Part shown: in pieces, positions 20,657 through 33,701 of the stretch
How the letters are laid out: each line of letters starts with the position of its first letter
Numbering within the stretch: the first letter of the stretch is position 1
Source: Parafrankia discariae
GTDB taxonomy: Bacteria; Actinomycetota; Actinomycetes; Frankiales; Frankiaceae
DNA: 64,000 nt
Assembly: GCF_000373365.1 (NCBI RefSeq)
Contig: NZ_KB891102.1
Span: 265,632 to 329,631, forward strand
Direction: 5' to 3'
Translations under genes and position numbers: made by a program
Notes under the pieces: model-generated
Databases searched by the model: none
Seen by the model: only the letters and a program-made list of their open reading frames with translations
What the model was told of the DNA's origin: nothing

Positions 20657-21403
20657 TCAACCCGCCGGCGCGGCGCGCCACCCGGACGGGTCGAGATCGG
20701 GGTAGGCGGGCGCCGGCGGCACCGACTCGTCCTCCAGCAGCAGGAGGAACCAGCCGAGCGGCACGAGCACCGCGACCTCGGGCACCCAGCCCCGACGCGG
20801 GTCGGCCACCGTCGCGGCGCCGAAGTCCGGGCGGGCCACGGGCGGGCGGTGGCGCGTCAGGTCGGACGGGTCCACCAGCACGATCGCGACCCCGTCGTGC
20901 GCGAACCGGACGACGTTGGCGTTCCGCCAGCCGACGAATCCCCGCTCGAAGACGTATCCGGCGGCCCGGCGGCGCGGGCGCAGCCAGCGCAGCGTGGAGC
21001 CGTCCGCGAGGTCGACCAGGCCGCCCCGCGAGCGGGGCCGGAACACGGCGAGCGGCAGCCGCGTCACCGGGTCGACCACCCGCACCCCCGCACCGTCGAG
21101 GTCCGGCTCCAGCCGGAGCGGGCGGCCGGCGGCCATGAGCTCCACCCCGCCGTCCCGGTGCCACCGTTCGAGGACGGCCGCCCGGTCACCGCGCACCCGC
21201 ACCTGGTTGCGGGAGCCCGGCACGAAGGCGTAGCCGATCTCCAGCGGCAGCAGACCGTCGAACCGCGCGGGGCGGCCCCCGGTCGCCCCGGCCGCGCCAC
21301 GACCGAGGACCACCCCGCGGCGGCGGTGACCCGGCGTCTCGTCCGTTCCACCGCGGGACGCGCCCGGCACCGCCGCGAGGCCCGAGAACTCGAAGATCGA
21401 CAT
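20657..21403 (-). CDS. Hypothetical beta-rich protein
   Basis: 248 aa, no family recognised with confidence. ATG 21403 has GGGAGGG 8 nt upstream; upstream codons in the same frame are not preferred. After a short Gly/Arg-rich region it reads as successive beta strands: FDGLLPLEIGYAFVPGSRNQVRVRGDRAAVLERW, GVRVVDPVTRLPLAVFRPRS, LVDLADGSTLRWLRPR, YVFERGFVGWRNANVVRFAHDGVAIVLVDP, EVAVLVPLGWFLLLL. This alternation loosely recalls LURP-one/scramblase-like folds, but that is only an impression. No signal peptide or clear membrane helix. Its stop is 24 bp from the LexA box, so the box sits between it and the HEPN gene. Confidence 0.6.
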   Translation of the reverse strand: MSIFEFSGLAAVPGASRGGTDETPGHRRRGVVLGRGAAGATGGRPARFDGLLPLEIGYAFVPGSRNQVRVRGDRAAVLERWHRDGGVELMAAGRPLRLEPDLDGAGVRVVDPVTRLPLAVFRPRSRGGLVDLADGSTLRWLRPRRRAAGYVFERGFVGWRNANVVRFAHDGVAIVLVDPSDLTRHRPPVARPDFGAATVADPRRGWVPEVAVLVPLGWFLLLLEDESVPPAPAYPDLDPSGWRAAPAG

Positions 21404-21722
21404 GATCGACACCCTCCCTCCGCCATCGCGGGACCCCGAACACCCCCCGTCGAAATGCGCGGCGGCCCGGTATGGCTCTCCACAACGAGTGCACCCCGGA
21501 CCGATCAACAACCGGTACACACCGGATCACGGCCGCCGTTGACCCGGAGTTGAAAGCGCCGAATCGCACGGACGACGCTCGCGCGGCGATTCCAGGGTTG
21601 TCCCGGTGTCCGCCACGGCCGGCCGCGGAAAAGGCAGAATCAGAAGGACGAGCACCGCCGACGCACCGCGCCACACCACACCGGCGGCGGCGGCGGCGGC
21701 CACATTCGCCCGAGAGGACCAG
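21404..21722. other. Divergent intergenic region between the hypothetical gene and the SARP regulator
   Basis: 319 nt with no convincing gene. It contains TTGAC (21539-21543) and TTGAA (21550-21554) exactly 11 bp apart, the spacing used by SARP regulators, and GAGAGG before the SARP start. No clear sigma-70-type promoter is identified. Confidence 0.5.
21539..21554 (+). promoter_or_regulatory. Candidate SARP direct-repeat site
   Basis: Two TTGA-type half sites, TTGAC and TTGAA, begin 11 bp apart 169 bp upstream of the SARP start. SARP proteins bind short direct repeats spaced by 11 bp; here only two copies are seen, so this could be autoregulation or coincidence. Confidence 0.3.
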
Positions 21723-24700
21723 ATGCCCGATCCGGACCGGCTCCAGTTCGCCGTCCTGGGCCCGTTGGAGGTCACCGCTGGCGGTGTTCCCGTCGTACTC
21801 GGCGGCACCCAGCGAAAGGTGCTGCTCGCGGCGCTGCTGCTCGAGGCCGGGCAGGTGCTGTCCACCCAGCGCCTGATCGAGGTGATCTGGAGCGATCCGG
21901 CCCCGGAACGGGCGCTCGCCACGTTGCGGACGCACGTCAGCGAGCTGCGCCGCCGGCTGGAGAGCCCCAGCGCGGCCCAGGTGCTCATCCGTCGGGGAGC
22001 CGGTTATCTGCTCGACGTGGGACCGGCGCAGATCGACGCCGAACGCGCCCGGCGGCTGTTGGAGCAGGGCCGGCGTGCCATTGAGGACGGCGACCCGGTC
22101 AGCGCCATCGCGCCGTTGCAGGAGGCGCAGGCGCTCTGGCGCGGCCAGCCTTTGGTCGATCTCGCCGACTATCCCTTCACAACGGGGTACGTCGAAAAAC
22201 TGACAGAGCTTCACCTTGACATCCAGAAGACGCGAATCTCAGCTGATCTGTCGCTGGGCCGACACCGCGAGGTCATCGGTGATCTGCGGATGCTCGTCAC
22301 GAGACATCCGCACGACGACGGGCTGCGCCGGGAGCTCGTTCTCGCCTTCTACCGCGACGGCCGCACCGAGGACGCCGCCCGGGCCTGCCGGGAAGGCCTC
22401 GAGGCGCTCCACGATCTCGGTCTGGAATCCCCGCTGCTGCAACGGCTGCAGGAGGACGTCCTGCGCGCCGATCCGGGACTGGCCTGGACGCCACCGCGTG
22501 CGCTGGGCCGGCCGGTGTCGGCCCCGCCCACCGGGCAGGGCGTCTACCAGCTCCCGCCCGACATCGAGGAGTTCACCGGCCGCGACACGATCCGCGGCCA
22601 GATCCTGGCCACCCTCGCCGATCCGGTGGCGGGCGCGAAGGGGACGGTCGTCGCCGCGATCGCCGGCAAGGCCGGGGCGGGGAAGACCGCGCTCGCGGTC
22701 TACGTGGCCCACCGGGTCCGCGACCGGTTCGCCGACGCTCTGTACGTGGATCTGCGCGGCACCAGCGAACCGCTCGACCCGCACCGCGTCCTGGGCCGGT
22801 TCGTCCAGGCGATGGGGGTCAGCCGGGCCGCGGTCCCCGCCGACCCCGACCATCTGGTCGAGGTGTACCGGTCGCTGCTGGTCAACCGCCGGGTGCTGAT
22901 CCTGCTGGACAACGCGGCGAACGAGGCCCAGATCCGCCCGCTGCTCCCGACCAGCCCCGGCAGCGTGGTGATCGTCACCAGCCGCTCGCGGATGCACGGG
23001 CTGACCCCCGCCTACTGGATGGTCGACGTCCTGCACCCCGGCGACGCCGTGGAGCTGCTCGCCAAGGTGGTCGACGAGCGGCGGGTGAGCGCGGAGCCGG
23101 AGGCGGCCCGCGACATCGTGGGGCTGTGCGGGTACCTGCCGCTCGCCATCCAGATCGCGGGACGCAAGCTGGCCGCCCACCCGCACTGGCGGCTCACCCG
23201 GCTGGCCTCCCGGCTGGCCAACGAGCGGGACCGGCTGTCCTGGCTGGAGGCGGGCGACCTGGAGGTCCGCGCCAGCTTCGGGCTCAGCTACGAGGGCCGC
23301 CCCGCCGACGAGCAGCGCGCGTTCCGGCTGCTGGCGCTGCCCGAGCTGGCCGACTTCGCCCCGTGGGCCGCCGCCGCCGTCCTCGACGTCGGGCTTGACG
23401 AGGCCGAGGATGTCGTGGACCGCCTCGTCGACGCCCAGCTGCTCGAACGCCGCGGGGTCGACCGGGCCGGCACCGAGCGGTACCGGTTCCACGACCTGCT
23501 CCGGGTCTTCGCCCGGGAGAAGAACGAGGCGTCCGCCGGCGCCACGCCCGGAACCCCGGCCGGCCCCGAGACCGGCCCCACGGCCGGGACCGGAGCGGCA
23601 CCGGTACCGCGGCTGGCTCCCGAGCACGCGCAGGCCCTCGGCCGGCTGTTGTACGCCTATCTGGCCGTGCTGCGCGGCGCGGTCGACGAGTTCGCGCCGG
23701 GCACCGCGCGCACCGTCGAGCCCACCGCGCGCACCCCCGCCGCGCAGACCTCCACCGTGCACACCCCCACCGCGCAGACCTCCGCCGCGGGCGGCTCCGG
23801 CGACCGGGCCCACGCCGTCGACCCGGAGGTGGTCGCGGCGCTCACCGCCCAGCCCCTGCTGTGGTTCGGCGGCGAGCGGGTCAACCTGCTGGCCCTCGTC
23901 GACCAGGCGCACCGGCACGGCCTCGACGAGCCGACCTGGCTGCTCGCGATCGAGGCCGCCGAGTTCTGCGCCTTCGGCGCGCACTGGTCGGACTGGGAGC
24001 GGATCCACTCCCTCGCGCTCGCGGCGGCGCGGCGGCGCGGCAACCGGCTGGCCGAGGCGGTTCTGCTCTGCGGCCTGGGCGAACGCGACATCACCCTCGC
24101 CTTCGAGCACGCCTTCTGGCGACTGGACGCGCCCGGCGCCGACAACGACGGGGAACCGGCGGTCGTCCTCGGTGCCCGCGCCGCCGACCACCTCGACCTC
24201 GCGACCGAGCGGCTGGAACGCGCCCGGTCGATCTTCGTCGAGTACGGCGACACGCTCGGCGAGGCCCGCACCCTGCACGGGCTGGCCGACGCCGCGCGCG
24301 GGCGCGGCGACGCCGAGGGCGCGGTGGAGCACTTCGAGCAGTGCCTGGCGCTGACCCGCCGCGGTGGCGCGCGGCGGGCGGAGGCCGAGGCGCTGATCTG
24401 CCTGGCGATGGCGCACGGCGACCGCGACGAGCTGAGCGAGGGCATCACCTGCCTGTCGATCAGCCTGTCGATCGCGCGAGAGCTGACCAGCCGGTCGCTG
24501 GAGGCGCTCGCGCTGCGCCGGCTCGGTGACCTGCACCGGCACCGGCCGGAGCGGGCCCTGGCCCACTACAACGAGAGCCTGCCGCTGCTGAGCGCGCTGC
24601 CCGACATCCTGTGGGAGCCGCGGATCCTGGTCCGCCGCGGCGACATCCTCGCCCGTCTCGACGACCATCTCGCCGCGCGCCGGTCCTGGCAGCAGGCGGT

Positions 24701-25682
24701 CACCCTGCTGCGCCAGCACGGTTCCACCGAGCTGGCCGCGGCCGAGGCGCGGCTGGCCCGCCCGGCGAGCACCGCGCCGACCCAGTTCGCCAGCGGCCGG
24801 CTGCTCGGCGACTTCGACCCGGCCTACTTCATCGGACGGGTCACCACCAGCCGGCGCAGCGTCCGCCTGCTCAACACGTGGACGGACCTGCTGGCCCCGG
24901 CGCACGTCGAGGCCTTCGCCGCGGCGCTGCTCACCGCGGTCGACGCGGGGGCGATGGTGCAGATCCTGCTGCTGGACCCCGACTCCCCGCCCGCGGCCGG
25001 CCGGGCCGAGGACCTGCTGCACAGCATCGACGTCCCGAACGTGATCAGGGCGAACCTGCGGGTGCTCGACACCGTGCGGGCGCGGCTGGTCCCCGCGCTG
25101 CGCCCCCGGCTCTCCGTGCGGATCTACGGTGACCAGCCGCTGACCACCTACCACCGGTGGGACAGCGGGGCGCTGATCTCGACCTTCCCGTTCGGGCACT
25201 CGTCGGCCGCCACCACCCAGCACGAGGCGACGATCTCCTCGACCCTGGTCCAGTTCGTCGAGCAGCACTTCGAGAAGATCTGGCACCCCGACCGCAGCGT
25301 CAGCCTCGACGACTACCTCCGGGTGCCGCTGCGCATCCTGCGCGCCGACGGCCCCGACCGGGACGCCCGCACGATCCAGGCGCGGTACGCGCGGCTGGGC
25401 GCCACGGTCTACCTGGCCGACGAGGAGCTGACCCGGCTCGTCCACGACGGCGGCGCCGACGGTCTCGTCACCGAGATCGGCGGCACCGGCCGCCATCCGC
25501 TCGCCGAGCTGCACCGATGCCGGGTCGTGCCGGCCTGGGAGGGGCGGGCCGGCGCCGCGGACGCCTTCGCGCAGAAGTACGGCCCGCAGGCCACGGCCCC
25601 GACGCCGGACGGCCCGCCGCTGCGGCTCGCGCCGATGCGCCCGCCGCCGGCCGGCCAGCCGCCATCCCGACCGGTCCTGTGA
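21723..25682 (+). CDS. Giant AfsR/SARP-family regulator: winged helix, BTAD, NB-ARC ATPase, TPR, C-terminal PLD-like domain
   Basis: 1319 aa. N-terminal OmpR-like winged helix (LQFAVLGPLEVTAGGVPVVL to RRGAGYLLDV, about 5-100), BTAD domain (about 105-245, DLADYPFTTGYVEKLTEL onward), NB-ARC ATPase with Walker A GKAGAGKTAL (about 315-325) and LILLDNAANEAQIRPLLPTS, then TPR-like helices (about 750-1010). The last 250 residues (GDFDPAYFIGRVTTSRRSVRLLNTWTDLL ... HFEKIWHPDRSVSLDDYLRV) resemble PLD-like sensory/effector modules and are unusual for a SARP. ATG 21723 has GAGAGG 6 nt upstream. The CrtA-like gene starts 1 nt after its stop, so this regulator probably controls or senses carotenoid or secondary metabolism. 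Confidence 0.88.
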   Translation: MPDPDRLQFAVLGPLEVTAGGVPVVLGGTQRKVLLAALLLEAGQVLSTQRLIEVIWSDPAPERALATLRTHVSELRRRLESPSAAQVLIRRGAGYLLDVGPAQIDAERARRLLEQGRRAIEDGDPVSAIAPLQEAQALWRGQPLVDLADYPFTTGYVEKLTELHLDIQKTRISADLSLGRHREVIGDLRMLVTRHPHDDGLRRELVLAFYRDGRTEDAARACREGLEALHDLGLESPLLQRLQEDVLRADPGLAWTPPRALGRPVSAPPTGQGVYQLPPDIEEFTGRDTIRGQILATLADPVAGAKGTVVAAIAGKAGAGKTALAVYVAHRVRDRFADALYVDLRGTSEPLDPHRVLGRFVQAMGVSRAAVPADPDHLVEVYRSLLVNRRVLILLDNAANEAQIRPLLPTSPGSVVIVTSRSRMHGLTPAYWMVDVLHPGDAVELLAKVVDERRVSAEPEAARDIVGLCGYLPLAIQIAGRKLAAHPHWRLTRLASRLANERDRLSWLEAGDLEVRASFGLSYEGRPADEQRAFRLLALPELADFAPWAAAAVLDVGLDEAEDVVDRLVDAQLLERRGVDRAGTERYRFHDLLRVFAREKNEASAGATPGTPAGPETGPTAGTGAAPVPRLAPEHAQALGRLLYAYLAVLRGAVDEFAPGTARTVEPTARTPAAQTSTVHTPTAQTSAAGGSGDRAHAVDPEVVAALTAQPLLWFGGERVNLLALVDQAHRHGLDEPTWLLAIEAAEFCAFGAHWSDWERIHSLALAAARRRGNRLAEAVLLCGLGERDITLAFEHAFWRLDAPGADNDGEPAVVLGARAADHLDLATERLERARSIFVEYGDTLGEARTLHGLADAARGRGDAEGAVEHFEQCLALTRRGGARRAEAEALICLAMAHGDRDELSEGITCLSISLSIARELTSRSLEALALRRLGDLHRHRPERALAHYNESLPLLSALPDILWEPRILVRRGDILARLDDHLAARRSWQQAVTLLRQHGSTELAAAEARLARPASTAPTQFASGRLLGDFDPAYFIGRVTTSRRSVRLLNTWTDLLAPAHVEAFAAALLTAVDAGAMVQILLLDPDSPPAAGRAEDLLHSIDVPNVIRANLRVLDTVRARLVPALRPRLSVRIYGDQPLTTYHRWDSGALISTFPFGHSSAATTQHEATISSTLVQFVEQHFEKIWHPDRSVSLDDYLRVPLRILRADGPDRDARTIQARYARLGATVYLADEELTRLVHDGGADGLVTEIGGTGRHPLAELHRCRVVPAWEGRAGAADAFAQKYGPQATAPTPDGPPLRLAPMRPPPAGQPPSRPVL

Positions 25683-25683
25683 C

Positions 25684-26487
25684 GTGCTCGTCACCGTCGA
25701 CTTCTGGCACGTCCCGCGGCGGCGGGTGGGGCACGCCGCCGCGCGCATGGCCCTCGACCGCCCCGCGCTGCGGCGGACGTCCGGGCTGACGTTCGGCAAG
25801 CTGCTGGGCACCGGCTCGGGCCACCGGTTCACCCCGCTCGACGCCGACCCGCTGCGCTGGGCGCTGCTGGCGGTCTGGGACACGCCCTCGGCCGCCCGGG
25901 ACTTCGAGCGTTCCACGACAATCCGGTCATGGGCTGGCATCGCGGACGAGCGCTGGCGGGTGGAGCTGCGTCCGGTGGCCTCCCGGGGGCGGTGGTCGGG
26001 CCGGGCGCCGTTCGGGGGCGGTCCCGACGGGGAGCGTCGGGAGAGACACAGTCGTGAGAGCCACAGTCCCAGGAGCCACAGTCCCGAGGGACACAGCGGA
26101 GAACACGACGGGGAGCCCGTGGCGGTTGTCACCCGGGCCCGGCTCGCGCCGCGGCACGCCGCGGCCTTCTGGCGGGCCGTCCCGCCGGTCGCGACGGAGC
26201 TGCGCGGCGCCGGCGGGCTGCTGTTCGCCGCCGGCGTCGGCGAGGCCCCGATCGGCCTGCAGGGCACCTTCAGCCTGTGGCGGGACGTCACGGCGCTGCG
26301 CGCGTTCGCCTACCGGGGGCCGGCGCACGCCGCGGCGGTGCGGCGCACCCCCGCGGCCGGATGGTACACCGAGGAGCTGTTCGCCCGTTTTGTCGTTCTG
26401 GGCTCACGCGGGACGATCGGTGGTGTGAACCCGCTCGACATCCCGCCGTCCGTCGGGAAGGCCGATCATCCTTTGACAACCCGTTGA
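25684..26487 (+). CDS. Spheroidene monooxygenase (CrtA)-like protein
   Basis: 267 aa. CrtA proteins introduce keto groups into acyclic carotenoids. The N-terminal half, MALDRPALRRTSGLTFGKLLGTGSGHRFTPLDADPLRWALLAVWD, matches the CrtA pattern (a short dimeric alpha/beta-barrel domain with L-C/G-x-G-x-G-FTP); a second similar half follows (GGLLFAAGVGEAPIGLQGTFSLWRD). Between them is a Ser/His/Glu-rich repeat linker (about 120-145). GTG 25684 is 1 nt after the SARP stop: they are co-transcribed. Presence of cruF, cruG, crtI and crtB nearby supports a carotenoid role; activity on spheroidene itself is unproven. Confidence 0.75.
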   Translation: MLVTVDFWHVPRRRVGHAAARMALDRPALRRTSGLTFGKLLGTGSGHRFTPLDADPLRWALLAVWDTPSAARDFERSTTIRSWAGIADERWRVELRPVASRGRWSGRAPFGGGPDGERRERHSRESHSPRSHSPEGHSGEHDGEPVAVVTRARLAPRHAAAFWRAVPPVATELRGAGGLLFAAGVGEAPIGLQGTFSLWRDVTALRAFAYRGPAHAAAVRRTPAAGWYTEELFARFVVLGSRGTIGGVNPLDIPPSVGKADHPLTTR

Positions 26488-26701: not shown

Positions 26702-29239
26702 ATGCCAAGGTCCCTCGACCCCTCCGCCCCGTCCGCCGTACGCGGGAGACCGGCCGGGAGCACCGCCGACGCCGCCCCGGCCGGGCGGCGGACCCTTATC
26801 GCGACGCCGGTGACCGACCGGGTCGCCGGGCTGGCCACCCGGGCCGGCGCGGTGCTGCTCCCGGAGCTCGCCGGACGGCCCGCGGACCTGGCCGCCGCGC
26901 TGGTCGAACACCGGCCGCACACGCTCGTCGTCGGGGCCAACCACGTTCCGGGCGACGCGCTGCGCCGGTGGGCGCGGGCCATGCGGCGCGCACCGGACCG
27001 GCGCGCACTGGCGGTGCTCCGCCGCGGGACGTCACTGGCCGAGATCGACACCGGCACGGCCGCGGAACTGGGCGTGACCGTGCGCAACACCCCGGAGGTC
27101 AACGCCCGGCACGTCGCCCGGTTCATGGCGGACGAACTCCTCGCGCCCCGCCGCACCGCCGCCGACCCGGCCCGGCCGGGGACCGTCGGGTTGATCGGCA
27201 GCGGTGACATCAACAGCCGTGTCACGCGCGAGGCGGTCGCCCGCGGCCACGACGTGATCGTGTACAGCCCGTCGCTGGCCGCCGAGGCCGGCGTCGCGAC
27301 CGAGACCGGCGCCGGCGCCCTCGACCGCTGGCTGGCGGCCAGGCGGCTGCCCGCGGGACGCATCCGCGCGGCCCGGGACGTCGAGTCCGTGCTCGACGCG
27401 GCCGACCTGCTCGGGCTCGCCGTCCCGCTGACCACGGACGGGGAGCACCCCACCGCCGGCCTCATCGGGGCCGAGCGGCTCAAGCGGTTCGGCGGCCACC
27501 GGATCGTCTCGGTGTGCGAGCCCGACGTGTTCACCGGGCCGGCGCTGACAGCGGCCTTCGACCAGCTCGATCTCGAGATCGTCCTGGACAACGCCCCACG
27601 GCTGCTCGACCCGGTGCGGGCGCTGCTGGCCGGCCGGTACGACCCGGACGACCCGCGGCGGGCCCGGCCCGGCTTCACCCTCGTGTCGGCCGCGATGCGC
27701 GCCCCGGAGTGCGCGGCCGATCTCGACCAGGCCGTCCTGACCGCCCTCGCCCGCCTCGATCTCGACGACCGGCGGGAGCGTCCGCGCCCACCCGCCCGGC
27801 CGGGCGGGGACGCCGCCGAGGCCGTCGTGGTGGTGGGCGGCGGAATCGTGGGCCTGACCGTCGCGCTGCGGCTGCACGAGGCCGGGCGGCGGGTGGTGGT
27901 GCTCGACGCGGCGCCGGCCGACCGCCGCCGGGTCGACGAGCAGGGCACCACCTTCGCCGGCACCAACGGACGTCACCTGTCCACGACCGAGACCCTGCCG
28001 CACGCCGATGCCACCCGCGCCGGCGTCCTCGCCCGGACCCCGGCCGACGGTGGCTGGCGGCTGCGCCCGCCGGAGTCGCTCTCGGCGCCCGAGGCCGCCT
28101 GGGCCGAGGCGTTCGAGCGGTTCACCGACCGGCCCGGGCTGCGCGCCCTCGCCACCGAGGCGGTGATCTCGCTCAACCGGCTGGGGCTGCGGCGCTGGGA
28201 GGAGATCTTCCGGGACCGGCCCGACGACCTCGGCGCGTGCCTGCGGGGGAACCGCCCGGCCCGGTTGTACCTCGACGACACCGGGCTCGCCGCCGGCCGC
28301 GCGCTGCAGGCCCGGGCGAACGACGAGATCACCGACCTGGACGTCGCGGCGACCCGCCGGCACTGGCCCGCGCTCGCCACCGCCGGCTCCGGCTCCGGCG
28401 GCGGCGGCGGGGTCGTCGAGGTCGACGGGTGCGCCGTGGCCATCCACGACCTGGCCGGTGCGCTGGCCGACCTGCTGCGCCGCCGGGGGGTGCCGGTGGT
28501 CCCCTCGGCCGCGGTCCGCGCGTTGCGGCCCACCCGCGCGGCGGTCGAGGTGGAGCTCGCCGACGGCACGGTCATGCCGGCCGGCCGGGTCGTCCTCACC
28601 GTCGGCGGCCGTGACCTGTACCGGCTGCTCGGGGCGCGCTGGCCCGACGCCGGCTGCGTCGCCAACGTGCTCGGGGTGTCGCTGACCCTGCCGAACCCGG
28701 GGGTGACCCGTCCGTTGAAGATCCACGCGGGCGACCCGCTCGGGGTGATCAACCTGACACCCGCCGCCGACCGGTCGATGATCCACGTCAGCGGCGGCTT
28801 CGGCTACCTCGGTCTGGCCTCCTGGCGGGGCGAACGTCTCGTCCCGGCCGACACCGGCGGCACGACGGACGGCGGCACGACGGACGGCGGCACGACGGGT
28901 GACGGCGCGGCGGCGGCCGTCGAGGAGCTGGTCACGGCGCTCATCGCGGCCGTCGGTGGGCTCTTCCCCACGCTGCGCGGGCCCGACGGGCGGCTGGACG
29001 TCCGCGAGGTGCGCACCTGCGAGCGGCCGATGACCGCGGACGGCCTGCCGGTGGTCGACGCCCCGGCGGAGCTCGGCGGGCGGATCGTCGTCGCGGCCGG
29101 GACCAACGCCGGCGGGGCGGTCCAGGCGCCGGCCCTCGCCGACCTCGTGTCCGACCTGCTCGACGGCCACCCGCGGTGGGCGCAGCTGGCCATGGCCGGT
29201 GACCGGACCGGCCGGCCCGTCAGCGGGGGGCGGCAATAG
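26702..29239 (+). CDS. Fusion of a D-2-hydroxyacid-dehydrogenase-like NAD domain and a D-amino-acid-oxidase-like FAD domain
   Basis: About 845 aa. Residues about 25-365 look like a D-2-hydroxyacid dehydrogenase: RRGTSLAEIDTGTAAELGVTVRNTPEVNARHVARF and Rossmann GLIGSGDINSRVTREAVARGHDVIVY. Residues about 375-830 form a DAO-type flavoprotein: VVVVGGGIVGLTVALRLHEAGRRVVVLD with the ADP-binding GxGxxG, and the C-terminal ERPMTADGLPVVD ... VVAAGTNAGGAVQAPALADLVSDLL. The usual dehydrogenase catalytic Arg, Glu and His are not evident. ATG 26702 has no strong ribosome-binding site; an upstream in-frame start (26561) exists. Two low-complexity inserts (SGSGGGGG; TDGGT repeats). Substrate unknown. Confidence 0.78.
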   Translation: MPRSLDPSAPSAVRGRPAGSTADAAPAGRRTLIATPVTDRVAGLATRAGAVLLPELAGRPADLAAALVEHRPHTLVVGANHVPGDALRRWARAMRRAPDRRALAVLRRGTSLAEIDTGTAAELGVTVRNTPEVNARHVARFMADELLAPRRTAADPARPGTVGLIGSGDINSRVTREAVARGHDVIVYSPSLAAEAGVATETGAGALDRWLAARRLPAGRIRAARDVESVLDAADLLGLAVPLTTDGEHPTAGLIGAERLKRFGGHRIVSVCEPDVFTGPALTAAFDQLDLEIVLDNAPRLLDPVRALLAGRYDPDDPRRARPGFTLVSAAMRAPECAADLDQAVLTALARLDLDDRRERPRPPARPGGDAAEAVVVVGGGIVGLTVALRLHEAGRRVVVLDAAPADRRRVDEQGTTFAGTNGRHLSTTETLPHADATRAGVLARTPADGGWRLRPPESLSAPEAAWAEAFERFTDRPGLRALATEAVISLNRLGLRRWEEIFRDRPDDLGACLRGNRPARLYLDDTGLAAGRALQARANDEITDLDVAATRRHWPALATAGSGSGGGGGVVEVDGCAVAIHDLAGALADLLRRRGVPVVPSAAVRALRPTRAAVEVELADGTVMPAGRVVLTVGGRDLYRLLGARWPDAGCVANVLGVSLTLPNPGVTRPLKIHAGDPLGVINLTPAADRSMIHVSGGFGYLGLASWRGERLVPADTGGTTDGGTTDGGTTGDGAAAAVEELVTALIAAVGGLFPTLRGPDGRLDVREVRTCERPMTADGLPVVDAPAELGGRIVVAAGTNAGGAVQAPALADLVSDLLDGHPRWAQLAMAGDRTGRPVSGGRQ

Positions 29240-29330
29240 CACCGTTTGCCGCCCCCGTCCCGGCCGACAGGCGGTGGGTTCACGCCGCGCGTTATCGTCG
29301 GATGGCCCGGTGCGACAGGAGGCGAGGTTG

Positions 29331-29938
29331 TTGACCGACGTCCGAATCGTGCGGTGGTCACCGGCCCGGATGCGGGCCCGGCTCGACGATGTCATCGCCG
29401 TCTACAAGGCCGCGTTCCTCGACCACCACGAGGACGACCCGGTGCGCGCCGCCCGGGACAGGGCGACGCACGCCCGCCGCCACTTCGACCGCCGTGACCT
29501 GCGCGCCGTCGCCGCGGTCACCCCGGACGACGAGCTGGTCGGCATGACGTACGGCCTGCCCGGCAAGAACGGCCAGTGGTGGCACGACGTCGTCGCCGGC
29601 GCGCTCGCGGAGAGCACCGCGGCGCACTGGCTCGCCGACTGTCTCGAGGTCGTCGAGCTGCACGTGCTGCCCGGCTACCAGGGCCACGGCATCGGCCGTG
29701 ACCTGCTGCGGGAGCTGCTGCGGGACGCACCGCACCGCACCGCGGCGCTCTCCGCGCTCGAGCTGCCCGGCAGCCGGGCGCGCCGGCTGTACGCCAGCGA
29801 GGGTTTCGTGCCCCTGCTGTCGCACTTCCAGTTCCCCGGCAGCGGCACCGAGTACGCCGTGCTCGGCAAGGAACTGCCCGGGCGGGATGACGGCGACCCG
29901 CCGCGGCCCGCTCCGGCGAGCCGGCCCGCCCGGGTGCC

Positions 29939-29942
<4 letters not shown>
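29331..29942 (+). CDS. GNAT-family N-acetyltransferase
   Basis: About 203 aa. The acetyl-CoA-binding motif is clear in VVELHVLPGYQGHGIGRDLLRELL (about 106-129, Q-x-x-G-x-G pattern), followed by ALSALELPGSRARRLYASEGFVPLLSHFQF. TTG 29331 (or the adjacent TTG 29328) is chosen because AGGAGG lies 8 nt upstream; longer frames lack this. The stop overlaps the cruF GTG (GTGA), so it is in the carotenoid operon. Acceptor substrate unknown; it might modify the carotenoid glycoside or have an unrelated role. Confidence 0.85.
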
Positions 29943-30939
<997 letters not shown>

Positions 30940-30943
<4 letters not shown>

Positions 30944-32301
30944 GCGGGCGCGGACTGGCGACGGCACTGGTGCGCTCCGGCGCGGCCGGAGCCGTCGCCG
31001 TCGCCGCGCACACGGCGGTGAACGCGGCGCTGTTGCGCGTCCCGGTGCCGGCCGTCCCGGTGTGGGAGCGGGTCAGCGTGATCCTGCCCGTGCGGGACGA
31101 GGCGGCGCGGGTACGCACCTGTGTGACGGCCCTGCTCGGCTCCCGGGACGTCGCCGACCTCGAGGTGATCGCCTACGACGACGGCTCGACGGACGGCACG
31201 GGTCGGATCCTGCGCCGGCTCGCCGAGCGGGACGGACGCCTGCGGGTCCTGACCGGGCCGGAGCCGCCGGCCGGCTGGCTGGGCAAGCCGCACGCCTGCG
31301 CCCGGGCGGCGGGCCAGGCCACCGGCACCGTGCTGGTCTTCGTCGACGCCGACGTCACGCTCGCCCCGGACGGCCTCGCCCGGGCCGTGGGCCTGCTGCG
31401 CGGATCGGGCCTGGACCTCGTCTCGCCCTACCCGCGGCAGGTCGCCGTCGGGGCGGTCGAACGGCTCGTGCAGCCGCTGTTGCAGTGGTCGTGGCTGGCG
31501 CTGCTCCCGCTGCGGGCCGCGGAGCGTTCCGCCCGCCCGTCGCTGGCCGCGGCCAACGGCCAGTTCCTCTGCGTGGACGCCGCGGCCTACCGCCGGGCCG
31601 GCGGGCACGACGCGGTCCGCGGGGCCGTCCTGGACGACATCGAGCTGCTGCGCGCGGTGAAGCGTTCCGGCGGGCGCGGTGTGGTCGCCGACGGCACCGA
31701 GCTGGCCGTCACCTGGATGTACGACGGCTGGCAGCCGCTGCGTGACGGCTACGCGAAGTCGCTGTGGGCCGCGGGCGGCACCCCGGCGGCGAGCCTCGGG
31801 CAGCTGGGGGTACTCGGCTGGCTCTTCGTCGGCCCGGCGGTCGCCGCGGCGCGCGGGTCACGCGCCGGGCTCGTCGGCCTGCTGGCCGGCACGGCGAGCC
31901 GGCTGATCGCGGCCCGGCGCACCGGCGGCCGCGCCTGGCCGGACGCGGCGGCCCACCCGGTCTCCGTCTGCCTGCTCGGCTACCTGACGGCGCTGTCGTG
32001 GTGGCGGCACCGGCACGGCACCATCCGCTGGAAGGGCCGCGCGCTGACCGGACCACCGGCCGGGAACGGACCATCGGGCTGGAACGGGCCACCGGCCGGG
32101 AACGGACGACCGCGCATAGGCTCGCAACCGTGGCGACGGTCGTCGTGGTCGGGGCGGGCGTCGGCGGGCTGGCGGCCGCCGCTCGGCTCGCCGCCGCCGG
32201 GCACCGGGTCACCGTCTGCGAGGCGGCGGAGCGGATCGGCGGGAAGCTCGGCTGGTATGAACGCGACGGCTACGGGTTCGACACCGGCCCGTCCCTGCTG
32301 A
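30940..32301 (+). CDS. cruG: Family-2 glycosyltransferase, CruG-like carotenoid glycosyltransferase
   Basis: Attaches sugar to the 1-hydroxyl of acyclic carotenoids in cruF-cruG clusters. About 453 aa as read. GT-A motifs: VSVILPVRDEAARVRTCV, YDDGSTDGTGRIL, LVFVDADVTLAPDGL (metal-binding DxD), NGQFLCVDAAAYRRAGGHDAV and VLDDIELLRAVKRSG, then C-terminal hydrophobic segments. GTG 30940 overlaps the cruF stop. Homology appears to end near GTIRWKGRAL (about 32040); the remaining about 85 residues are low-complexity, include an 18-bp repeat tract, and overlap the next gene by 172 nt in another frame. A frame change near 32050-32115 would give a stop just before crtD, so the true C-terminus may be shorter. 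Confidence 0.83.
32050..32103 (+). repeat. Three tandem 18-bp repeats at the cruG 3' end
   Basis: Three copies of an 18-bp unit of the form GGACCACCGGCCGGGAAC (middle copy diverged) encode G-P-P-A-G-N-like units. They mark the place where cruG homology fades. Confidence 0.8.
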
Positions 32302-33701
32302 CGATGCCCGAGGTGTTCGAGGAACTGTTCGCCGCCACCGGCGGGCCGCTCGGCGGGCAGCTCACGCTGCGCCGTCTCGACCCGATCGCCGCCTACCGGT
32401 TCGCCGACGGCACGACGGTGAACGCGCACGCCGACGACACCGCGTTCCACGCCGAGCTGGACGCGAAGCTGGGCGCCGGGGCCGGCGCCCAGTGGCGGCG
32501 CCTCGACGAGCGCGCCCGCCGGGTCTGGGCGGTGTCCGAACAGCCCTTCCTGCGCAGCCCGGTCTCGGCCGCGGCGTTGGCGCGGACCGCCGCGCGCCGC
32601 CCGCTGGGGCTGGCCACCGTCGCGCCCGGCACCACCCTGCGTGGCCTCGGGCGGCGTCACCTCACCGATCCGCGGCTGCGCGTGATGCTGGACCGGTACG
32701 CGACCTACACCGGCTCGGATCCGCGCCGGGCTCCGGCCGCGCTGGTCACGGTCCCGCACGCGGAGCGCCGGTTCGGCGGCTGGTACGTCCCGGGCGGGCT
32801 GCGGCTGCTCGGGCAGGCGATCGCCGGGCGGGCGACCGAACACGGCGCGGTGATCCGCACCGGCGCGCCGGTCGCGCGGATCACCCGCGCGCCCGGCGGG
32901 CGGGTGGACGGCGTCCGGCTGGCCGACGGGACACTGCTGGCGGCCGACCTGGTCGTGTCCGACGTCGACGCGGCCCGGCTCTACGACGGCGCGCCGCCCG
33001 CGGCGCCCGGGCGGGCCGGGCCGCGGCCGCTCGTCGACCACCCGGCCAGCCGGCGGCGGATCCGGCGGCTGGCGCCGTCGCTGTCCGGCTTCGTCCTGCT
33101 GCTGGCGCTGTGCGGGCGGACACCGGGCCTGGCCCACCACACCGTGCTGTTCCCCGCCGACTACGACGCCGAGTTCGACGCGGTCTTCGGCGGCCGGCTG
33201 GCCTGGGATCCGACCGTCTACATCGCCGCGCCGGACGACCCGGCGACCGCCCCGCCGGGCGACGAGGCGTGGTTCGTCCTGGTGAACGCCAGCCCGCACA
33301 CCGCCGCCGCCGGTCCCGGGTCCGGGACCGGCGGCTCCGATTCCGGTGGCTCCGATTCCGGGCCGCGTGGTCCCGGTGTGGACTGGGACCGGCCCGGGCT
33401 CGCCGACGCCTACGCCCACCGCGTCCTCGAGGTGCTCGCCGCGCGGGGGCTCGACGTCCGCGCCCGGGTGCGCTGGTACCGGACGATCTCGCCGGCCGAC
33501 CTCGCCCGCGCGACCGGCTCCGTGGGCGGCTCGATCTACGGCGTGTCCTCCAACGGGCCGCGGTCGGCGTTCCTGCGCCCGCGCAACCGCTCGCCGGTAC
33601 CCGGGTTGTTCCTGGTCGGCGGCTCGGCCCACCCGGGCGGCGGGCTGCCGCTGGTCACGCTCTCCGCGAAGATCGTCGCCGAGCTCATCGGCCCGGCCTG
33701 A
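32130..33701 (+). CDS. CrtI-family carotenoid desaturase, probable CrtD-type (1-hydroxy-carotenoid 3,4-desaturase)
   Basis: About 523 aa FAD-dependent desaturase. N-terminal dinucleotide motif VVVVGAGVGGLAAAARLAAAGHRVTVCEAAERIGGKLG, DTGPSLLTMPEVFEEL, and C-terminal FAD motif RSPVPGLFLVGGSAHPGGGLPLVTLSAKIVAELI, all typical of CrtI/CrtD. A Gly/Ser insert (GSGTGGSDSGGSDSG, about 395-410) is extra. GTG 32130 is chosen because the Rossmann strand begins immediately. Placement next to cruF-cruG, with a second CrtI homologue elsewhere in the window, suggests the CrtD role; sequence alone does not fix which bond is desaturated. Converges with the next gene with a 17-nt overlap. Confidence 0.82.
   Translation: MATVVVVGAGVGGLAAAARLAAAGHRVTVCEAAERIGGKLGWYERDGYGFDTGPSLLTMPEVFEELFAATGGPLGGQLTLRRLDPIAAYRFADGTTVNAHADDTAFHAELDAKLGAGAGAQWRRLDERARRVWAVSEQPFLRSPVSAAALARTAARRPLGLATVAPGTTLRGLGRRHLTDPRLRVMLDRYATYTGSDPRRAPAALVTVPHAERRFGGWYVPGGLRLLGQAIAGRATEHGAVIRTGAPVARITRAPGGRVDGVRLADGTLLAADLVVSDVDAARLYDGAPPAAPGRAGPRPLVDHPASRRRIRRLAPSLSGFVLLLALCGRTPGLAHHTVLFPADYDAEFDAVFGGRLAWDPTVYIAAPDDPATAPPGDEAWFVLVNASPHTAAAGPGSGTGGSDSGGSDSGPRGPGVDWDRPGLADAYAHRVLEVLAARGLDVRARVRWYRTISPADLARATGSVGGSIYGVSSNGPRSAFLRPRNRSPVPGLFLVGGSAHPGGGLPLVTLSAKIVAELIGPA

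Follow-up and report, generated by a model that had tools for sequence, protein, structure and literature searches.

What becomes of a dehydrogenase fold when its catalytic residues have been replaced and an oxidase has been joined to its C-terminus? This question is raised by a gene of Parafrankia discariae located in a stretch of 64,000 nucleotides (hereafter, the window), which encodes a 2-hydroxyacid dehydrogenase (2HADH)-like domain fused to a D-amino-acid oxidase (DAO)-like flavoprotein. Since almost all of the 2HADH subfamilies surveyed keep the catalytic triad (PMC6303947), a protein that combines a replaced triad, a strictly conserved cleft and an attached amine oxidase offers a clean case in which to study the turning of a dehydrogenase fold into a sensor or scaffold. 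Short relatives without the NAD-binding half provide a natural control. In addition, the fusion gene marks an unstudied SARP-linked accessory module within a carotenoid-type locus of nitrogen-fixing Frankia.

Domain Architecture and Distribution of the Fusion Protein

The reading frame of the fusion gene is uninterrupted, and its product consists of two domains (Table 1). Pfam places a 2-Hacid_dh_C match at residues 149–277 (1.8e-8) and a DAO match (PF01266) at residues 375–819 (9.6e-23), and no curated NCBIfam model covering the fusion reaches its cut-off. An AlphaFold2 model was built from 14 sequences (mean pLDDT of 75; model numbering is protein numbering minus 28). Model residues 1–330 could be superimposed on glyoxylate reductase (PDB 5aov) with a Z-score of 24.3 and an RMSD of 2.8 Å over 282 residues, a match indicating that the N-terminal domain, as modeled, is a whole two-subdomain 2HADH fold and not a fragment. 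Glyoxylate reductases are among its best structural matches. The best sequence matches among solved structures belong to the PdxB/SerA/glyoxylate reductase group, and the domain contains a PdxB-like PL..DGEHPT segment.

Table 1. Features of the fusion gene and its neighborhood (window positions; motif residues in protein numbering).
Feature	Position	Strand	Remarks
Orphan protein, divergent from SARP gene	20657..21520	-	Co-occurs with the fusion
AfsR-like SARP regulator (Trans_reg_C, BTAD, NB-ARC, TPR)	21606..25682	+	
CrtA-like (spheroidene monooxygenase family)	25684..26487	+	Adjoins SARP gene
Fusion gene, 2HADH-fold pseudo-dehydrogenase + DAO/glycine-oxidase-type FAD domain	26702..29239	+	845 aa plus stop
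2HADH-fold domain, residues 29–356	26786..27769	+	Predicted fold matches glyoxylate reductase 5aov
RRGTSL, invariant former substrate loop	27020..27037	+	2HADH V72-G73 replaced by T110-S111; canonical loop from PMC6303947
GLIGSGDIN, Rossmann GxxGxGxxG	27188..27214	+	Last Gly replaced by invariant Asn171; motif from PMC6303947
VSVCEPDVF, catalytic-Arg position	27506..27532	+	Invariant E273; profile alignments, ortholog alignment
IVLDNAP, catalytic-Glu position A298	27578..27598	+	Nicotinamide-side Asp kept (D296, invariant)
TLVSAAM, catalytic-His loop	27677..27697	+	His position A330; no conserved His
DAO/glycine-oxidase-type FAD domain, residues 373–840	27818..29221	+	Best matches glycine oxidase (Z 28), CmiS2 (26–27% identity)
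CERPMTADG, C773 and R775	29018..29044	+	Invariant in the long forms and in the short forms alike
GNAT acetyltransferase, downstream	29199..29942	+	ORF overlaps fusion stop; start codon uncertain
cruF, CruG-like family-2 glycosyltransferase, crtD-like desaturase	29939..33701	+	Order kept in almost every fusion-positive locus

A family search for the same fusion, one of the checks proposed in an earlier note on this DNA, recovered it in 18 of the 35 Frankiaceae genomes sampled, at full length in 16 and on broken contigs in the other two; about 500 sampled genomes from other actinobacterial families had no copy. In the class, phylum and relatives samples, the only homolog beyond Frankiaceae was the short form of one metagenome-assembled genome (MAG). 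When 84,980 species genomes were scanned with two peptide motifs, a procedure blind to distant relatives, the matches came from Frankia and Parafrankia only. The genome belongs to Frankiaceae; the closest relative, with 90% identity over the protein, matches Parafrankia soli. A frameshift or misassembly as the origin of the fusion is ruled out by the 16 full-length copies. A viral or plasmid origin of the long form was rejected, as no encoded relative was found among the viral contigs and the dehydrogenase part had no match on plasmids. No paper on a 2HADH–oxidase fusion was found in the openly accessible literature. The fusion is a real, unusual enzyme variant, not a revolutionary one: both of its parts are of known kinds, with no wholly new fold or system.

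Replacement of the Catalytic Residues

In canonical 2HADHs, Gly73, Arg230, Glu259 and His277 are conserved in more than 90% of sequences (PMC6303947). The earlier note had reported that Arg, Glu and His are missing from the three motifs in which they would be expected. Those motifs do lie at residues 269–277, 293–299 and 326–332, and the classical triad is absent from them. In profile alignments to PdxB and to the strain’s own SerA, E273 falls on the catalytic Arg and D296 on the nicotinamide-side Asp. The local profile alignments end before the other two positions, so Glu (A298, or L301 if ungapped) and His (A330) were placed by motif spacing and the order of strands and helices. The 2HADH Arg, Glu and His are missing from each of the 16 complete copies. 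So are two residues that the note did not list, the substrate-loop Gly (S111 in its place) and the third Gly of GxGxxG (now N171). The triad replacements are identical across the complete orthologs, except for conservative variants at the His slot, and hence are not sequencing noise; the motifs RRGTSLA, GxGxIN, EP, DNAP and SxAM are common to all of them. Neither a TPH motif nor a conserved His in the catalytic-His loop is present in any copy examined. A triad at shifted positions, the finding that would have overturned the original reading, was looked for as well, but the complete copies offer no conserved His, Arg or Glu that would fit the catalytic slots. The same genome encodes two further full-length 2HADH family members, both with the usual RG, EP and PH motifs.

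The dinucleotide-binding motif is also altered. Three of its four Gly residues are kept, the last being Asn, and strand B no longer ends in the NAD-type Asp (S189 in the P. discariae protein). The Gly residues of GxxGxGxxG are, however, not totally conserved among 2HADHs in general (PMC6303947). Taken together, the structure prediction and active-site comparison give a 2HADH fold that is complete in the model and catalytic residues that have been replaced. The N-terminal domain thus has the complete fold of the D-2-hydroxyacid dehydrogenases PdxB, SerA and glyoxylate reductase (PF02826), but differs from them in the replacement of Arg, Glu, His, the substrate-loop Gly and the third Rossmann Gly, as well as in the attached flavoprotein. 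2HADH folds without catalytic residues have been described in plant ANGUSTIFOLIA (AN), which is CtBP-like and forms the sister clade of CtBP, and in the archaeal X4 subfamily, about half of which loses only His and Glu (PMC6303947). These proteins resemble the N-terminal domain in this respect; yet, by the descriptions in the same paper, neither is joined to a flavin oxidase, unlike the Frankiaceae protein.

Conservation of the Emptied Cleft

The cleft was defined as the eight loops that line it in 2HADHs, picked by us from the alignment. It is invariant at 36 of 58 positions, compared with 37 of 270 elsewhere in the dehydrogenase domain (Fisher p = 1.8e-13), although part of this signal is generic because Rossmann-fold loops are conserved in most families. 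The two substrate-side loops are each invariant at seven of eight positions, i.e., as strongly as the glycine motif. That the most conserved portion of the dehydrogenase domain is its emptied cleft argues for reuse rather than decay, and, judged from these alignments, the cleft has probably been put to another use. The description “missing catalytic residues” is correct for the classical 2HADH triad, but “dead domain” would be wrong.

Flavin Domain

Model residues 342–813 match glycine oxidase (Z-score of 28) and CmiS2 (Z-scores of 27.8–27.9, 26–27% identity over the domain); the Z-scores to the two together span 27.8–28.3. The FAD Rossmann motif reads GGGIVGL, and R775 aligns with the Arg of the RP motif in the glycine oxidase ThiO, where this residue binds the carboxylate group. 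A weak profile match pairs C773 with an amadoriase Cys that we take to be the flavin attachment (8-alpha) residue. FsqB and MSOX also require a Lys for flavin attachment (PMC6222107). As this Lys appears to be Gln in the fusion, a covalently bound flavin is a possibility only. With GGGIVGL, the glycine-oxidase-aligned Arg and the invariant amadoriase-aligned Cys all present, the initial impression of a complete FAD domain holds. The fusion thus shares with ThiO and CmiS2 the fold of the FAD domain, the GxGxxG FAD site and the aligned Arg, but it differs in its added N-terminal 2HADH-fold domain, in a longer insert region and in having an invariant Cys two positions ahead of the Arg. Among the matches listed in a search of a viral fold library, only generic flavoproteins were present.

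Short-Form Relatives

Relatives beyond Frankiaceae are rare. One of them, 608 residues long, is encoded by a distant actinobacterial MAG that does not belong to the class; it has the oxidase motifs of the fusion, preceded by no more than a stub. Three proteobacterial plasmids (from Methylomagnum, Ochrobactrum and Azospirillum) carry homologous short forms of 544–595 residues. Throughout this range of 544–608 residues, the oxidase signature motifs are kept, but nothing corresponds to the NAD-binding half. The stub could be aligned to the opening 90 residues of the 2HADH domain (hhalign E-value of 7e-6 and 84% probability for one pair, plus a weak BLAST match). The short forms thus have the oxidase motifs and the stub in common with the fusion, but lack the NAD-binding subdomain and are found in other gene neighborhoods, namely exporters with a PLP aminotransferase and GNAT, an NRPS with exporters and GST, and GST with a DMT exporter. 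Such neighbors, together with an ATP-grasp-type gene, fit small amino-acid-derived metabolites, and the oxidase may tailor compounds of this kind. In the MAG (L064, 7180–9670), a pre-ATP-grasp-domain gene, possibly encoding a peptide or amide ligase, directly follows the short-form oxidase. On the Ochrobactrum plasmid pLM19O2 (L084, 8045–12321), a PLP aminotransferase, a LysE exporter, the short-form oxidase and GNAT are located just upstream of type IV secretion genes.

Because the short forms do without the NAD-binding half, hydride chemistry by the N-terminal domain appears to be dispensable in the wider family. This bears on an alternative in which T110-S111, E273, D296-N297 and S329 form a new set of active residues and the domain works as an NAD(P)H-dependent oxidoreductase. 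It would, for example, reduce what the oxidase releases (glyoxylate, an imine or a keto acid), thereby forming a self-contained redox pair. Glyoxylate is indeed released by glycine-oxidase relatives such as CmiS2 (PMC11284099), glyoxylate reductases appear among the best structural matches, the nicotinamide-side Asp is kept, and the cleft residues are invariant, not drifting. Nevertheless, we regard a working oxidoreductase as unlikely, given that none of the four substrate-binding or catalytic residues conserved in more than 90% of 2HADHs (PMC6303947) is left, that both the strand B Asp and the third Gly of GxGxxG are replaced, and that the short forms do without the NAD-binding half.

Gene Neighborhood

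In the 16 fusion-positive loci, as far as the contigs reach, the gene order is orphan (reverse)–SARP–crtA–fusion–GNAT–cruF–CruG-like glycosyltransferase–crtD, with a weak crtD match in one of them (L024). The SARP gene is present in all 16. Conversely, in ten fusion-negative relatives that have retained crtA and GNAT, a SARP gene beside crtA was found in none, nor was the orphan gene found, whereas cruF–cruG–crtD is kept in nine. Since SARP is missing from beside crtA in these ten relatives while nine retain the core crt genes, the fusion belongs with the SARP module and not with the core carotenoid genes. SARP and the fusion flank crtA on opposite sides, so one simple deletion cannot explain their joint absence; on the other hand, the genomes compared are related, and hence the number of independent events is small. 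No paper on a Frankia carotenoid SARP was found in the openly accessible literature.

From its place in this locus, the fusion had been suggested in the earlier note to act in an undescribed pathway step. The fixed position in a carotenoid/SARP locus is borne out, whereas the pathway step is not supported by the nine relatives that keep cruF–cruG–crtD. In its full form, this explanation makes the fusion a step of Frankiaceae carotenoid biosynthesis, in which a carotenoid end group, or its glycoside, would be the substrate of the oxidase. The fixed place between crtA and GNAT–cruF–cruG–crtD, wherever enough contig is available, speaks for such a step; however, several relatives, including members of the same genus, keep crtA–GNAT–cruF–cruG–crtD without the fusion, and the oxidase fold is that of amino-acid and amine oxidases with a carboxylate-binding Arg. 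We therefore doubt a role in carotenoid biosynthesis; it is possible but not obligatory, because the core cluster persists without the fusion.

GNAT is kept in 33 of the 35 Frankiaceae genomes, with or without the fusion and even where the crt genes are gone, so a specific tie to the fusion is improbable. In three related genomes (L074, L075 and L079), GNAT lies between a HEPN-type gene and MTHFR in a fetched region without crt genes, which hints at a function unrelated to carotenoids. In one fusion-negative relative (L072, 9334–11199, minus strand), the gap between crtA and GNAT is filled by an MFS-transporter-like ORF on the opposite strand. The orphan protein has an ordered β-rich core and a C-terminal hydrophobic helix, with no match in Pfam or NCBIfam and no significant fold match in the PDB.

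Proposed Function

On balance, we favor, with reasonable though not high confidence, a flavin amine/amino-acid oxidase that carries a non-catalytic, probably ligand-binding pseudo-dehydrogenase and that belongs to a SARP-linked accessory module of Frankiaceae in a carotenoid-type operon. The C-terminal glycine-oxidase-class domain would do the chemistry as a flavin-dependent amine or amino-acid oxidase/dehydrogenase. The 2HADH-fold domain presumably no longer performs classical hydride transfer to 2-keto acids; with its fold and strictly conserved cleft retained, it probably binds a ligand, either a dinucleotide or the substrate or product of the oxidase, and may help to assemble, gate or feed the oxidase. 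SARP would regulate the module, which sits inside the carotenoid-type operon. The earlier suggestion that the NAD domain is a sensor or acts by another mechanism agrees with this; as far as sequence can tell, a sensor, a scaffold or a non-classical mechanism is most likely. More speculatively, the 2HADH active site may have been rebuilt with wholly new invariant residues to make a module that binds a ligand or NAD(P) and either controls the fused flavin amine oxidase or is chemically coupled to it, yielding a SARP-controlled metabolite in symbiotic Frankia.

The least probable explanation is that the N-terminal domain is a vestige heading for loss, kept only through its tether to the oxidase and with the short forms as the end point: the absence of the NAD-binding half from the short forms and a dN/dS of the NAD part somewhat above that of the FAD part in every pair compared are in keeping with it, but no part of the domain is more conserved than its cleft loops, and every dN/dS value is below 1. 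The dN/dS values, the estimation of which is biased by a GC3 near 95%, indicate constraint on both domains; they are 0.34–0.66 for the NAD part and 0.24–0.36 for the FAD part (six related pairs and one NAD-only pair). The mean column identity of the dehydrogenase part, 55%, is likewise near that of the flavin part, 57%.
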